This document shows positions 1 to 50,500 of a stretch of DNA of 64,000 nucleotides, one piece after another. This DNA comes from Datnioides undecimradiatus. Its lineage: Eukaryota; Chordata; Actinopteri; Lobotiformes; Datnioididae. The notes under the pieces are model-generated. The model made no database searches. It was not told the DNA's origin and saw nothing but the letters and a program-made list of their open reading frames with translations. Made by a program: the position numbers and the translations under genes. Position 1 is the stretch's first letter. The number at the start of each line of letters is the position of its first letter. The DNA lies in NCBI GenBank assembly GCA_008933995.1, contig WARS01000015.1, positions 7,150,861-7,214,860 of the forward strand. The letters are read 5' to 3'.

Positions 1-41717
<41,717 letters not shown>

Positions 41718-41734
<17 letters not shown>

Positions 41735-41903
41735 GTTGCGGGGACTGCGAGATCGTTTCCCACTTTATAGTATTTCCCCGAAAGCGTGTAGCGATATCCC
41801 AAGGCAACAAAGTTTCACTCTCGGAGATCTCACACCCGTGAAGTAGGACTTCATACTCCTGTTGGAGACGGCGAGTCAAAGTCTGCGCCTTCCATCCCAA
41901 CAT
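41718..41903 (-). other. Upstream ORF overlapping the canonical ptch1 start
   Basis: A 61-codon reading frame starts with ATG at 41903 (G at -3, moderate context) and stops with TAA at 41718-41720, 17 bp inside the Patched coding region in another frame. If the 5' UTR reaches 41903, ribosomes using it would bypass the main start. The peptide resembles nothing I know. The transcription start is not determined. Confidence 0.5.
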
Positions 41904-42330
41904 TTCGTGATCCGGAGGTCTCCACCGCTTTCACCGCATTCACCGTGTCTCTTAAAAAAGTAAAGTTTCTCTCAAAAAGCGAGGTGCGCGAAGTGATTCC
42001 CATACACAAGTCGTCGGGTAAGAAACCTCGATGGTCGTAGCATTCTGGTGAGATCTATGTGGTCTTCCCCTGGGCCGCGCGTCACGGCCAACTCTGAGAT
42101 TCAATAGAAGAGGAGAAAAAGACCTCTCTCCATTTGGAGGCAGAGAAGGAGGAGGGGTGAAAATTAAAAAAAAGAGTCGAGATCCCGCCTCTGGGGCTGT
42201 CAGATTGCAGGACTTTCTTGCATCTGATTGGTTCCAGAAGGGCAAAAATTACTCAGCAAACACGACTATTATTAGCTGCTTAGCAACAGCTCACTAAAGT
42301 AGAGAGACCACCCAGGCAGAGAGACCTCAT
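41735..42330 (-). promoter_or_regulatory. ptch1: Canonical ptch1 5' UTR and promoter region
   Basis: Directly upstream of exon 1. CpG is clearly denser from about 41640 to 42110 than in the surrounding DNA. On the coding strand the region carries a GLI 9-mer (42306-42314), a CCAAT box (GGAACCAATCAG, about 42224-42235) and a GC-box-like GAGGCGGGAT (about 42182-42191). No convincing TATA box was seen, which fits a CpG-type promoter. The start site is unknown. Confidence 0.65.
42306..42314 (+). promoter_or_regulatory. Perfect GLI-binding 9-mer in the canonical promoter
   Basis: Exact GACCACCCA, 572 bp upstream of the canonical ATG. PTCH1 is a known direct GLI target, and its promoters carry this motif in other vertebrates (established knowledge). 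Context plus exact match make this the best-supported regulatory site in the window. Confidence 0.75.
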
Positions 42331-43790
42331 GTGTGCATCTCCAACTTCAGGGGAGGCTCGCTTAGAGCCAAAGCCGCTCGGTGCGTTTGGTGTTTTGGGT
42401 TTTCACATCGCAGCCTGTCGCTTGCAAGAAGGATTGCCCAGAGAGGACCTGAAGTCCAGGGCAAGGTACACCGTCTATGCGTCGGAAAAGGGGGCAGAGG
42501 AATGTCAAAGCTGCAGTTTAAGCTTTGATTTTTTTTTTTCTTCCACTGCCATGATGGTGGTAGGTGAGCCTCAAATTACAGTGGTTGAAGGGGAGGTCCT
42601 ATAGTGTAATGTTGTCACAATGTCAGCCTCACCTCAGTAACACGGTCGTCCTTATATACTGCAAAACATACCCTGCTTCTGTCCCATGTTACTCATTCAT
42701 TCATTGAGCTGATTTTCAAAAAAAAAAAAAACGGGAATCGTCCCAAAACTTTTGGGATTTTAGTAATTCCAGTTATGGACTCACACACACAAAACGCATG
42801 GAATAGACAGCTTCAACAGCTTGCAGTTGTGTGTTGTCCACCCCCAATCACATCTCATTGAAATCCACCAACATATAAGATGCACAATAATCCTAATGAA
42901 TCAAAAAATTATTATTCACAAATAACTAAATTCTGATTAACTTTAAAATCACAGTGTATTCAAGATTTTTGATTCACGCGCTAAACCTGGAAAACGTTTT
43001 TCATCCTCTTTATTGATTACCTTCTTGATTGATGGTTTCTACTATTATTCGGCATTACAATATCGCAATAGTAGGTTTATGTAGATTTCCTTCAAAATAA
43101 ACAGCCTTCAATTTCATATACATCAGCTGCGTAAGTCAAATAGCCAAGATGCATTTTCTTCTCACTGCGCATCCAAAGTTCTCTTTAACACCTTAAACCC
43201 TTCTAATACACACATTATGGATTACGTAAATACCTTTACCTTTGATCGCTTATATTTTCGGACAGTTTTTCCCCACGCACATTTTGTCACAACAGCGTAA
43301 TGCAACGGGCAAGCTGCTCCTATTAAATGATGTTCTGCAGGCATAAATCCATTTTATCGGTGCATTCTTCCAGACGTCTTTGTTAACTTTGCCAGAGGAT
43401 AAGCACAGTTTTGCATCAAAATATGCAATGCATAGCTAAAGATTTAAAGGTTTGCATGGATAATGACATAGAAATCGACATAGTGTCATGTTCAAAACAT
43501 CAGTTTCGCTAAATGTCAGTTATCTTTGAAATTAAAAGCTTTATGACCAAGGGAGAAATGGGAGACAATTCGCTAAAACCTCATATAGCTTTGAAATATA
43601 TTTGCGTCCGCTTAAGCATTACATCTTATCAATTCTTAGCCTAAACTAAGTTTTACTTACTGTGGACAATAAAACAGGCATGTTAAAGCTAAAGAATCAG
43701 CCCGTGCAGCCACCTGATGGAGTCTCACACTTCACACCTGAGCCGTCCGAGCTCTGCAGCGGCTCGTCTGGCTGCCAGCCGCGCACTTAC
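42331..43790. other. Between the two putative promoters
   Basis: AT-rich non-coding DNA, with poly-A at about 42718-42731 and several TAATTA-like stretches. No exon or repeat family was recognised. In transcripts from the alternative start it would be intron. Confidence 0.65.
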
Positions 43791-43970
43791 CATCTTCAGT
43801 CCAGGTGGGGAGAGCTTTCAGTACAAATCCGTAATATCCGCCCCCCGTGGAGCCCGAAACGTGTCAGTAATTTATGACGAAGATATAAAGAACTGCTTTA
43901 TTGTTGCGAGGAGAAAAAAAGATGCATCGTAATCCGTCTTGGTCGCAGGCATCCTGCTCCACGTCCGACA
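43791..43970 (-). other. ptch1: Putative alternative first exon (short-N-terminus ptch1 isoform)
   Basis: On the minus strand CTGAAGATG is followed at once by GTAAGTGCGC, a full-consensus donor, so ATG (43793-43791) would be the last codon of an exon. Joining it to exon 2 gives Met-Gly-Lys-Ala-Thr-Gly in frame, since exon 2 starts in phase 0. The resulting start context AAG-ATG-G is strong. Human PTCH1 has an isoform that starts just like this (as I recall, isoform M). A GC box (CCGCCCCCC, 43838-43846), a TATA-like CATAAAGG (43998-44005) and a GLI site (44012) lie upstream. The exon's 5' end near 43970 is a guess. Confidence 0.7.
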
Positions 43971-44011
43971 AGGTTCACTCACAATTACAAGGCTCTTCCT
44001 TTATGCCCACG

Positions 44012-44020
44012 TGGGTGGTC
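44012..44020 (-). promoter_or_regulatory. Perfect GLI-binding 9-mer at the alternative first exon
   Basis: TGGGTGGTC on the plus strand reads GACCACCCA on the coding strand. It lies 219 bp upstream of the alternative ATG and 2 bp into a CACGTG E-box (44008-44013). It is well placed to drive a Hedgehog-responsive second promoter. Confidence 0.7.
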
Positions 44021-47000
44021 CGGATCGCTCCACAGGCAGGACGGTTTGACTGTCACGTGATTAACCCCAAATTGTAAACAGTACCAACTCATCCACAACA
44101 TTCACATCCCGTGTCTCTGCCAGCCAAAGACACACACGCACACAACACACAGTTACATGCTGTACGATGATACATTTGTTATGAAATTCACACCTGTACA
44201 TGCACAGGTGCAAACACACGCGCGCGCAGATGAATCTATGCATGCGTTTACATACATAGAGATATGCAAACATAAAAACGTGTTTATATGGTTTGGAACA
44301 TATAGATACATTGATACTTGTTAATACTGTATGCATTATGTGCACACAAACTAAATTACAAATATGATGCATCCACACATACACACAGACAAATCAAGCA
44401 AATCTATTTTTATTGGTCAGGAGCCCAAAGATACCAGAGTCTATTTGTGGAATAAGTCTGTTTGTGGACGGAGCCCACCCTGTGTAAAACCTGTTTTACA
44501 CATGTTTTACAAAGCTAAGATTTTGTCTAGCAAACACAAATGTTTTCCTCTAAACAAAGCTATCTATGAAGTCTTATCATGATTTAGATTTTTCTTCGGA
44601 ATCAGTTGGAAGGCTTGGCAGGGTGGCAGCCAACACACACCAGCGTCAACAATAGTATCATTTCACCAGCATCATATATCCTTGGTGTGGTGTCTGAGTG
44701 GGAAAAGCATTGAAGGGGCAACAAAGTTAGGTTGTGATGCCCCCTAATGCCCCTGAATAGAACCGGGCCTGTCCCAGTGGAACATGGAAGTCTTATGACT
44801 TATGTTCCTGCTGCACCATATCTGTGCTAGACATGTTCAGGTTGTTGTCGTGACGGTAACGCTGTAGGACTCCATCAAAGTGCCGCAGGTCATTGTGCAA
44901 AACTGTCCACCCCTTTGAATACTGTAGTGTAGAGGCTGTAAAAATATGCCAGTAAAATGCTCTGGGAGATTATATTGCAAGCATCTGTGTGAACTAATGA
45001 AATACGTATGCACATAAGATGCCAAAACACCCTTGACCAAACATGAGCATATTTCCTTTTTTTTCATTTAACATCATGTGCTAATATGGATCAGATGGAC
45101 TAATTGCTCACTTTAGGAATTATACCAAGTAGGGAGAAATGTATTCCAAATCAGCTTCTTTTAATTTAGTTAGTTGCAGGCAACATTTTGGATTTCAGAC
45201 TTTTGCGAGCAAAGAGGGCAATGAGTCTATCCAGGCCTGTGGGTTATTGTCTGTTATATAAAAGCAGCAAGGTACAAACAATACAATAGCTGAACAATAC
45301 AGATCAACATTTTTTTGTAGGAATTTATTGTAACATCTCCTGGTTTTATTTGTCTGGTGTGATAGTAAACAGAATATATTTGAGTTTTGCATTGTTGGTC
45401 AAACAAAGCAAGGACCTCACCTTGGGCTTTAAAAGAGCATGATGGTCACTTTTATTGATATTTTATTTACCAGATTAGTTGATTATTAAGAAAAACATTG
45501 TCAGCTGAATCCCAAGTGAAACTAAGAGTTAGTTGCAGGCCTTTCACACTGCTCCACTGCATATGTGCCATATCACAGTCACGGTTTCACCTTGCATTAA
45601 TGCTATGCCATAGTGCTGATACTGCAATGCATTCCAACCTTTCTTGATTGCCACCATCAGACCAAACCAACAACCTTTTTAAATCTCAGAACTGGCAGGT
45701 TTTTAATGAAAACTTGAGTGCATTAAAGATTCCCATTAAAACATTAGACTTAATGAACTTTTCTGTGGCAGCACTCAGTGTTTCAACATTGCTGCTTGTG
45801 AATCTCTTTAAAATGAGAAGCCAGTCCCATTTAAAGCCACACCCAGTGAAGTGCATTGAAAAAAAGCAAAAAGGAAAAAAAAAAAACCCCAAAACAACCA
45901 CACATCAGAGACAGAGAATGAGAATGCAAACAAGGCACACCTCTTTATTGAAAACAAATGCACTCAAGATCCCAATTAAGTAAGAATGCTCTCGCTCTCC
46001 CACTTTCTCTCTCTCCTTTTCATTACAAAATAAAAAAAGAGTGAAACAAAAACAAAAGAAAAAAGAAAAACAATATGGGTGCCTTGGAGTGGGCAGTTCA
46101 TGGGGTTTAAAAGATCATGTGATGTGTTTCATTCATTGATAGATGCAGACCACCTATAGAGCCCATGTGGCTTTAGCTGCGTAGTACTGATAGGAAAACA
46201 CACACTGCACTACATTTTAGTGTACTGTATCTGTAGTTCAGGTGTATTTGTTAAGATGACTGATTATTTGCATGTGTGTTTGTAAATGTGCCATAACATC
46301 TGAAAGGATAGTTCTGGTTTATCAACTGTTTTCTCAACTGTTCCTAGTATTTCTGTGTTGATATCGACTGTGTACTGACCCATGTGAGTGGTTAGATCTG
46401 TAAACATAGCAACATTGCTAAAAAGATGTCCAGTAGGGAAAGAACTATGAGCATTCAGACAATCAAAGTGGTTTTATTCAAAAATTTCAGTAAGCCACAT
46501 GTAAATGACAAAACATGGGACGGGTAAAATTATTCTCTGTAAACATCCATAAATATCAACTTTCTGGTTCAATTTTGACCAAATTAATTAATATTCATGT
46601 CAAGATTTTTTTCCACTTATCTGTCATTCAAAACGGATTTTGCCACAACCTATGTGAGACAGTCATTGCTGTCAAACTTTAAAACTGTTTTCTGCTGCAG
46701 TCAGCTGTTGTTTCAGTGACACACATTTCATTGACCTCCAGTTTTCGTCACGTCCATCTAGATCTTCATCTCAGCTGCTCTTCCCTCCTTCACCACTGCC
46801 AGTGTCTGGACTCCATTGAGGGAATATTTCCTAACTGTTTATGGCATGACTAACCCTGTAAAATGATTACGTCATGATGAGGTCATAATGCCAAAAGCTC
46901 ACATACCTCCTCAGTTTCTCCTGTTTAGCGCAAAATGTCAAATTCAATCATTGATAACTGCAAAAGTCCTTCTTTCTATTAGTGTCTCCTGACTGAAATG

Positions 47001-47270
47001 TAGTTTTTGTGCAATCAGAGATAATTAATGAGATTTTTGTTTCTACTTCATGATCAAATGGTTTAGGGAATCTGGTTTAAGCTGTTGGCCTGATTACAAC
47101 TTGCTTGACTGTCTGACCACTTGTGTTTGCCGCACTGATCGACGATGTTGCAGCAATATGGCCGCGATCCCAGATGTCAGCAATTACTTAAATTATCATA
47201 AGTAAAAGAAGGGATTTAACAAATCTATGAAAATAGGACAAATGTTGGAAACTGGAATTATTTTCTAGGG
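44021..47270. other. Upstream non-coding DNA
   Basis: No gene is supported. A CA-rich, AT-rich stretch (44120-44390) is followed by unique-looking sequence, a possible repeat at 45428-45541 and an A-rich stretch at 45860-46075. Confidence 0.65.
45428..45541 (+). repeat. Possible decayed teleost dispersed repeat
   Basis: The stretch runs from GGGCTTTAAAAGAGCATGATG through TTAGTTGATTATTAAG to GAGTTAGTTGCAGGCC. It resembles a common fish repeat that ends ...ATCGTTAGTTGCAGCC. The 15-mer TAGTTGCAGGCAACA also occurs at about 11942 and 45171, hinting at more copies. The assignment is from memory and weak. Confidence 0.35.
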
Positions 47271-47503
47271 CAGTAGTTCGCAATGTGCAGTCCAGTGACA
47301 CTCTCATTAAGGGGGTCCTCAGCAAAAAGGGGATCATTTATTTTCATTGTAATTCCATCCATAAGATAGACAATGACAGAATGTGGGGCAATTCTGGTCA
47401 TAGACTTAAAACACTGAAAGACAAAAATCTTATCAGATGGTGGTCCATGGTCTAATTTGAGTTGGTTTAGGGGTCCTTGACATAAAAAGTTTGAGATCCA
47501 CTG
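47271..47503. mobile_element. Decayed hAT-type non-autonomous DNA transposon
   Basis: The left end CAGTAGTTCGCAATGTGCAG and the right end (complement CAGTGGATCTCAAACTTTTT) resemble the CAGTGGTTCTCAAAC-type terminal repeats of hAT elements. The 233-bp interior has no transposase. The flanking 8-mers TTCTAGGG and CTTCAAGG agree only partly, as expected for an old target-site duplication. The minus-strand ORF across it is not a gene. Confidence 0.6.
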
Positions 47504-50500
47504 CTTCAAGGTTTGTGTTCCTATCTGCAAGGCTGCACTTTTACATTCACTAAACAATCTTCCTCTCAGTGCACCTCCAATGCATCCCCCTTTGGAAGCC
47601 CCATACAGGTACCATTTCCAATATTTCTGCCAAGTCATAAAACTACCTCCATCTTGACCCAGCTGCTGGCTCCCCCTGGTCCATCATGACTGCCTGTGAA
47701 GCAGTAGGGGCTGAGTGCATGGCGAGAGCCTGCTGGGATGTTTATGTTCCAGCTCAAGGTTGTCTTCAATCATACACCGAGCTGTTTGACAGCTTGCAGC
47801 ACCGCCTGGCCTCTGTTTACCTCTCCCAATTTCCGACTGGCTTTGTATGCACAATCAGAGCAGCTCAGAGCGAATCCAAGAGGGCAGTTCCGCCATAGAC
47901 GTTCAACTAGCAGCAACACAGAGAAGTGGACCAAAGGCAGCATAACGTTAGACAGAAAATGCTTATGTTTGACTGGCTTAATCAGAATAGGTAAACTCTC
48001 CACTGAAAGAAAGCAGCCCCAGTTCATTTAAAATACGTGTTTGAAATGATTCAAACTGATTTTGTGTTTCTTCTGGTCCTTAAGATAGCAAGCATTGTTC
48101 ACTCCAACACTGGGGACATTGGAATATTCTAACCACTTTTCCAAAAGTTTCATCAAGTGAGGAGTGTGTGTTTCACACTATATATTGTTACATATTTTAA
48201 TGTTGACACCTTATGGTTAAGTTTCACAGACAAGAGAGTTGTCAGGATTGTGTGCAAAAGGAGAAATGAGAAGAAAACTATGACTGATACAGTCTAAATC
48301 ATATTGGTTCAGATTTAAGGATATATAAGCACACTGACATCTTATTAGTCTAATTTGGACTCCCTGTAGTGGTCCACCTTGCTGTTTGGCTGACATTTAC
48401 TCAGAGATCCGGGATAGACAATGTTGGAACTGGCTGATATTTAGACAAGGCAGTGGTCTGTTCTGCAGAACTGGCCTGAGAAGCTGTAATTTTTGGAAGT
48501 GAGTTCAGCCCCCAATGTTAACAGGAAACGTGTGCTGCTCTGAATGCATACACATGGCCTTAACAAATAAGCAGTATAATACAATATCAACCCTGTGGCT
48601 CCACGGAAAGACGGGGAGAGAGAAGGACAGAGAGTGAGACAACTGGAAATAGGCAGACAGAGCAGTTAAACAGATGGAGCTGACTTTTCAACAAATTCAT
48701 TTTTATAAATTGTGTAAAGAAAGAAAGGAAATTTTGACTCACAGACACAGATGCACATACACAAACAAATATATTTGGTATAAATTCTAACATCTGCACA
48801 CATTCACCTTGGTAGAAGGTTTGCTTACTTCCATTTAAACTGAGGTGGGTCTCTGTGGGAGGCCGACTGGAAAAAGTGACACACTTAAAGGTAAGAACCC
48901 CATAAGCTGTCCAGACCTCCTGTTCAGTTCAGTCTTAACAACAGCAGGAACTGTTACCTCCCTCAATGGAATTCAAGCTCATAAACAAGCAGCATCAGCC
49001 ATCATTAAGAGAAATTATTCCAACAGCACAGGGCATAAATACACACTTTTTGTTCCTTAATGCGTCTACAAAATAACTATTCATAATATGAATGTCCCAT
49101 ATTAAATTGATCATTTGTTCTTACGCATTCAAAGTTATAGCCTGTGGTCTATCAGTGACTCCTTCTTTTGCTTTTAAGTTTTGTTTTTCTAAGAATGTAT
49201 TAAAGATGATTAAATGGTATTAAGTGCTGTTTGGAATATCAAAGCTATTCTTGAGGTGTGCTTAATAGCATAATTAACCTGTAATTACAAGTTTTTTGCG
49301 CCAATTTAATAGTTTGTCTCACAAACATGAGGCTCACTTTCCACCCTTGTGTAATACTTTGAATCACTCAATACAGGGAAAGTGTAATTAAATTAACATT
49401 GGTTAAAAATCTAAAGAGTAAAAAGAATGCAGTTATATTTGAGTGAATATTAGTTTTTATTTGACCATGTTTGTTTGACAACGACCTTAGAAACCAGCTG
49501 CAAAGACTGAAAGAGTGACAAATAAAAAGTTTTTCACTCAGAGACAAGGCAATACACAGTGGACTAAATGAGACAGCATGTGATTGAGAGCCCCTCTGAC
49601 ATAAACACTCTGTCATTACAGAGATTGGGATGTTTCCTTAAAACTTTTAATTATGATGCTATTTGCATCCATTGGAATTTGGGCATCCTGACAGAATTAT
49701 AATATTTCTGCTGGAAAATGCACTTTTGTGCAGCCACAGTGGATTTCTGGATTGTTTGACCAAGACGTCAAAAAATAATAAAATTCTCATGAGGACACAT
49801 AAGCCTTGAAATGTTGGGACTTGGATCAATTTTTGTAAATTGTTGCTCCCTGGTTGAAATAAGTAGATGCAACACGGGAACATTAATTTTCACAGTCACA
49901 ACTCTTCTCCAAGTCGTTTTTGAGCCTCATTTTCATAAGATAATTTATAAATACATTAATTCATAATTAGTGCCTTAATTACATATATGTATGTGAGGTA
50001 TGAAAAAATCTTACTGCTTTAAGTACAGACCTGTATGTGTTGACGGCACCTGAAGCCAAACCACTAAGTCTTGGCTCTTCTGGCTCATCAATGCTCCGTT
50101 GCAGGCCTCATCTGCTTGTTTTCCCCACAGTACCATGAGGTCATAGCTTAAGTGGCCAATTAGCCCAAACACAGTTAAGTCCGGGGCATCTCCAGAGATA
50201 GTGGGAGTAGGATGAGGAAGGGTATTTATGTATGCTTTGCAGGACATCTGTGAATGGAGGAATTATAAAACCCGCCTTCCTTATCCCTGTCATTCTTCTA
50301 TCACACCTGGATTTCTGTGTGTGAAACGGTGCGCATGTCTGTCTCATCTGTTTTGGTTAAATGTCTGGTGGGCTTACTGTGAGGTCTGACTTGAGCAGGG
50401 GAAAATAGCTGTCATAATCACCCACGCCTGTATCTTTCGGCTTAAAGCCCTGTTTCCTAATTACCGCCTGCTAACAATCTTCTCGCATAATTTATGCGTA

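Follow-up and report, generated by a model that had tools for sequence, protein, structure and literature searches.

Mammalian PTCH1 is transcribed from several alternative first exons. According to the account given in PMC3449132, the most upstream of these is exon 1C of Shimokawa et al., named 1A by Nagao et al.; more than 9 kb separates it from exon 2, and its splice partner is either exon 2 or exon 3. PTCH1-1B and PTCH1-1C have been described as HH-regulated transcript variants (PMC3362617), and variants with different first exons are reported to be unequally stable and to inhibit the pathway to different degrees (PMC10167241). In the discussion of PMC12501224, truncated Ptch1a is described as binding SHH without inhibiting the pathway, and Smo as being repressed effectively by Ptch1b and more weakly by Ptch1c. 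Exon names vary between authors, so it is not certain which of Ptch1a, Ptch1b and Ptch1c is the equivalent of the fish isoform considered here. Mouse exons 1a-1e are figured in PMC4496206, with no statement at that place in the paper of which GLI site adjoins which exon.

The coding part of the human alternative first exon can be derived from variant nomenclature. One human variant is named c.1228_1229del (Ser410) on NM_000264 and c.1030_1031del (Ser344) on NM_001083602 in the variant description of PMC13141527, which gives an offset between the two transcripts of 198 nt, or 66 residues. Human exon 2 begins at c.202, because the intron-1 splice variant listed in PMC6014442 is c.202-2A>G, and this agrees with residue 68 in the alignment reported below. 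With an offset of 198 nt and exon 2 starting at c.202, the human alternative first exon contributes three coding bases, the ATG only. We take NM_001083602 to be the 1C/1A transcript and its protein to be isoform M.

GLI input to the gene has been described in several vertebrates. The human exon 1B promoter carries the GLI site of Agren (BS2) near a CpG-rich first exon, and its sequence context is available from published primers (PMC2830928). Mouse ptch1 is said in PMC3828767 to hold 14 GLI-bound regions, and a region of chick PTCH1 at -2549 is described in PMC5065992 only as a GLI-binding region. Gli2a ChIP-seq on whole zebrafish embryos of 5 and 15 somites placed four peaks at ptch1 (-600 bp, intron 2, exon 23 and intron 12), the first of which is conserved and was equated by the authors with the human site; the same authors regard ptch2 as more Hedgehog-responsive than ptch1 in fish (PMC3828767). 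In our literature search on ptch1 first exons in fish, ptch1 was absent from the 10 matches listed out of 30. First exons that code for ATG alone and have a GLI site of their own are, to our knowledge, known only from mammals.

Results

The ptch1 locus and its shared exon 2

The window analysed here is a 64,000-nt stretch of DNA from Datnioides undecimradiatus, and its minus strand carries the ptch1 gene. All 11 PDB sequences listed for the peptide of exons 1 and 2, and all 12 listed for the open reading frame at 11363-11809, were named Patched-1 or Protein patched homolog 1, in a library that may hold no PTCH2 chain. Exon 2 (39897..40089, minus strand) opens with CATCATAG|GGA AAG GCG ACA at 40089 and serves as the common acceptor of both first exons discussed below. 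Its length of 193 nt equals that of human PTCH1 exon 2 (c.202 to c.394, limits from entries in PMC6014442), and when the exon 1+2 peptide was aligned with Patched-1 sequences, fish Gly58 fell on human residue 68.

The coding part of canonical exon 1 occupies 41564..41734 on the minus strand. With the ATG at 41734 and the last exon base at 41564, it comprises 57 codons (MASAANAP...FALEQISE), and it ends at the donor GAG|GTGCTT. Donors were scored with a hand-entered matrix and ranked against the 4235 GTs on the sense strand of the window. The canonical donor scored 0.50 (rank 351 of 4235), in keeping with its description as weak in the earlier sequence-only reading of this DNA.

An upstream ATG placed directly before a splice donor

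Further upstream, the minus strand reads ...GGACTGAAG ATG GTAAGT..., and the ATG at 43793-43791 lies immediately 5' of the donor GTAAGT (43785..43790, minus strand), as first noticed in the sequence-only reading. Joined to exon 2 at 40089, this ATG is in phase 0 and would give Met-Gly-Lys-Ala, in agreement with the reading frame stated there. Exactly one codon of the putative exon is coding. An N-terminal extension upstream of this ATG was considered and is ruled out by an in-frame TGA, so the exon can add a methionine only. The start codon (43791..43793, minus strand) has an A at -3 and, once spliced, a G at +4. The canonical ATG follows 2059 bp further downstream, which makes the exon the 5'-most candidate first exon of the gene.

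The donor at ATG|GTAAGT scored 6.02 with the same matrix, ranking 17 of 4235, and is the top-scoring ATG-GT on the sense strand of the window. It had been suggested that this donor may splice better than the canonical one. Its score is indeed higher; the argument is nevertheless a weak one, because each donor would belong to a transcript with a promoter of its own, and the two would not have to compete.

The putative alternative first exon spans 43791..43975 on the minus strand, a 5' UTR of about 180 nt ending in the ATG, with a start placed from a TATA-like box. Of the upstream motifs named in the sequence-only reading, the perfect GLI 9-mer GACCACCCA (44012..44020, minus strand) is present, 227 bp upstream of the alternative start codon. 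The other two are present as well: the TATA-like CATAAAGG (43998..44005, minus strand), 6 bp downstream of the GLI site, is a weak motif match notable for its position only, and the GC-box-like GGGGGGCGG (43838..43846, minus strand), about 45 bp upstream of the ATG, is a plain motif match. No direct repeats were found around the alternative exon; one inverted pair lies at 45.7-46.0 kb. A text search of the literature with the peptide MGKATGRK and with the opening peptide of exon 2 returned no match.

Chance expectation and CpG retention

The ATG-donor by itself is unremarkable, as ATGGTRAGT occurs 2 times on both strands of the window against 1.78 expected. Perfect GLI 9-mers are enriched, with 6 in the window against 0.53 expected and a maximum of 5 in 1500 simulations. 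Of 1500 simulated 64-kb windows, 2 had on their sense strand a perfect GLI site followed within 230 bp by ATGGTRAGT; this figure is somewhat flattering, because the 230-bp limit was chosen after the feature had been seen.

CpG retention is usually a mark of promoters that are unmethylated in the germline. Using 500-bp windows and an observed/expected ratio of at least 0.75 (a threshold of our own choice; the median of the whole window is 0.31), we found only three CpG-retaining runs in the 64 kb. One covers canonical exon 1 (40851..42400). Another includes the alternative exon (42801..44400), its portion below about 43.5 kb being AT-rich with few CpGs, and the interval 43700-44100 within it holds 24 CpGs at a ratio of 0.88. 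The third, weaker run lies inside the ptch1 gene (34601-35200). The pairing of GLI site and ATG-donor is non-chance, and the CpG evidence is independent of the motifs.

Two GLI sites upstream of canonical exon 1

The 27-bp context of the human exon 1B GLI site, taken from the primers published in PMC2830928, matches the window best at 42289-42315 (26/27 bp), and the next best place reaches 17/27. The perfect GLI site within this block (42306..42314, plus strand) lies 572-580 bp above the canonical ATG, and on the strength of the 26/27 match we place the known promoter GLI site there, as the counterpart of human BS2. In the flanks, the 42306 site shares 16/17 and 7/20 bases with human BS2, against 4/17 and 7/20 for the site at 44012. 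The identification of 44012-44020 with the known human promoter site was therefore rejected; its flanks fail where 42306 fits 26/27. The GLI site of the alternative exon is thus its own, as had been claimed, and distinct from that of the canonical promoter. The conserved 27-mer had 0 matches in viral contigs and in genome contigs.

The zebrafish data fit this assignment. Peak I at -600 bp likewise marks a GLI site of fish ptch1 that is conserved to human, and both its distance and the authors' link to the Agren site in PMC3828767 indicate that it should match 42306 rather than 44012. At about 2 kb above canonical exon 1, the 44012 site corresponds to none of the four ptch1 peaks listed in PMC3828767 for 5- and 15-somite embryos, which we count against GLI use there.

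The site at 44012 may have a partial counterpart in chick. The chick PTCH1 element at -2549 shares 14/14 bp with GACCACCCACGTGG (44020-44007), and no other 14-mer of the window matches it at more than 12 positions. The fish GLI site lies 2278 bp from the canonical ATG, a similar distance above the canonical start. Beyond these 14 bp, the fish flanks are unlike the chick ones (6/20 and 8/20), and the part of PMC5065992 that describes the region does not report it as a separate promoter. The other five perfect GLI sites of the window have no core-adjacent base in common with the chick element. GLI proteins prefer certain bases after the core (data in PMC2830928), and the 14-bp match may be partly due to this preference. 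Given the base preference and the unlike outer flanks, we regard the chick match as only suggestive.

Two CACGTG E-boxes lie on the minus strand within 44005-44060. The one at 44008 overlaps the extended GLI site, and the one at 44054 is the only TCACGTGA in the window. We take them to be a possible input of the USF/TFE/MITF type.

Four further perfect GLI 9-mers occur at 11730, 14706, 27872 and 59363 (positions given without strand), the first inside the Patched 1-matching open frame. Five of the six perfect GLI sites in the window lie away from any ATG-donor, which suits an explanation in which the GLI site at 44012 and its CpG-rich block act from upstream as an enhancer on the canonical exon-1 promoter, with the ATG-donor as an unused chance match. 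The many GLI-bound regions ascribed to mouse ptch1, the bare description of the chick element as GLI-binding and the chance-level count of ATGGTRAGT point the same way. Such an enhancer would leave unexplained that the donor is the best ATG-GT on the sense strand, stands in the right phase and lies within 230 bp of a GLI site, and that the human alternative exon has the same anatomy as far as the variant naming reveals it. We consider this explanation unlikely, though it deserves to be taken seriously.

Comparison with mammalian first exons

The sequence-only reading had already named the alternative first exons of human PTCH1 and its isoform without the exon-1 residues. Both points hold; what it missed is that the human exon is itself ATG-only in its coding part. 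As far as can be judged from the sources cited above, NM_001083602 resembles the fish arrangement in having an ATG as the entire coding part of its first exon and in the phase of its junction with exon 2, and exon 1C is the most upstream mammalian first exon, just as the alternative exon is here. The net number of residues removed is 66 in NM_001083602 and 56 in the fish isoform. The two differ in the distance to exon 2 (more than 9 kb for mammalian exon 1C versus 3.7 kb). When two bisulfite primers used for methylation-PCR upstream of human exon 1a were compared with the in-silico converted window, there was no clear match in the region of the alternative exon and several other places outscored it; 0.7% of sense-strand windows scored at least as high as its best with the forward primer and 7.9% with the reverse primer, in a comparison that covered these two primers.

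The alternative exon contains two upstream open reading frames, starting at 43952 (26 aa) and 43927 (9 aa), both of which end before the ATG. They may burden translation from the alternative ATG. With these two upstream ATGs, and with the splicing of mammalian exon 1C also to exon 3 noted in PMC3449132, the exon could be thought to act as 5' UTR only, its upstream frames diverting ribosomes so that translation begins further downstream or yields little protein. We hold this to be improbable: both frames are short and closed before the ATG, and the bases at -3 and +4 of the spliced start codon are A and G. That the whole arrangement is coincidence, with no promoter at the alternative exon, is very improbable in view of the joint motif statistics and the CpG retention.

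Discussion

A second ptch1 promoter with an ATG-only first exon, as originally proposed from the sequence, is the best reading of the region, drawing on the CpG run, the joint motif statistics and the architecture of NM_001083602. On the basis of the compared exon structures, we judge it reasonably likely that the alternative exon corresponds in fish to the upstream first exon of mammalian PTCH1, known as 1C or 1A and giving isoform M. Because the first exon of the human isoform likewise codes for ATG alone, the arrangement is not new, and the fish exon is probably an old shared feature. What would be new about it is its age.

We propose the following mechanism. The upstream promoter would drive a first exon of about 180 nt that ends in the ATG, with transcription starting near 43975 if the weak TATA-like box is used. 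The strong donor is predicted to join this exon to exon 2 across 3.7 kb of intron. Initiation at the ATG would then yield a Ptch1 that begins Met-Gly-Lys-Ala and is without the 57 residues of exon 1. Because they are encoded from exon 2 on, the membrane domains and the stretch preceding TM1 would be kept. The GLI site at 44012-44020, if used, may add a Hedgehog-induced feedback output separate from that of the 42306 site.

More broadly, and at somewhat less than even confidence, we suggest that ptch1 has two GLI-driven promoters, both accompanied by a separate CpG block and GLI site, and that one of them, through its ATG-only exon, produces a receptor with a shortened N-terminus. This pair would date back to the common ancestor of bony fish and mammals and have been retained since, so that Hedgehog feedback would alter both the amount and the form of Patched across vertebrates. 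If this is true, a first exon of this kind, coupled to a GLI site, would be ancient among vertebrates, and the role of the Ptch1 N-terminal tail would become directly testable in fish embryos by removing either promoter. Two GLI sites that are easily confused are now separated, with 42306 as the match of the human promoter site.

Other features of the window are recorded here as observations. A 141-codon open frame lies upstream of ptch1 at 47258-47683 on the minus strand. Open frames on opposite strands (7562-8020, plus, and 8915-9355, minus) share a near-identical stretch and are perhaps inverted copies of a dispersed repeat.
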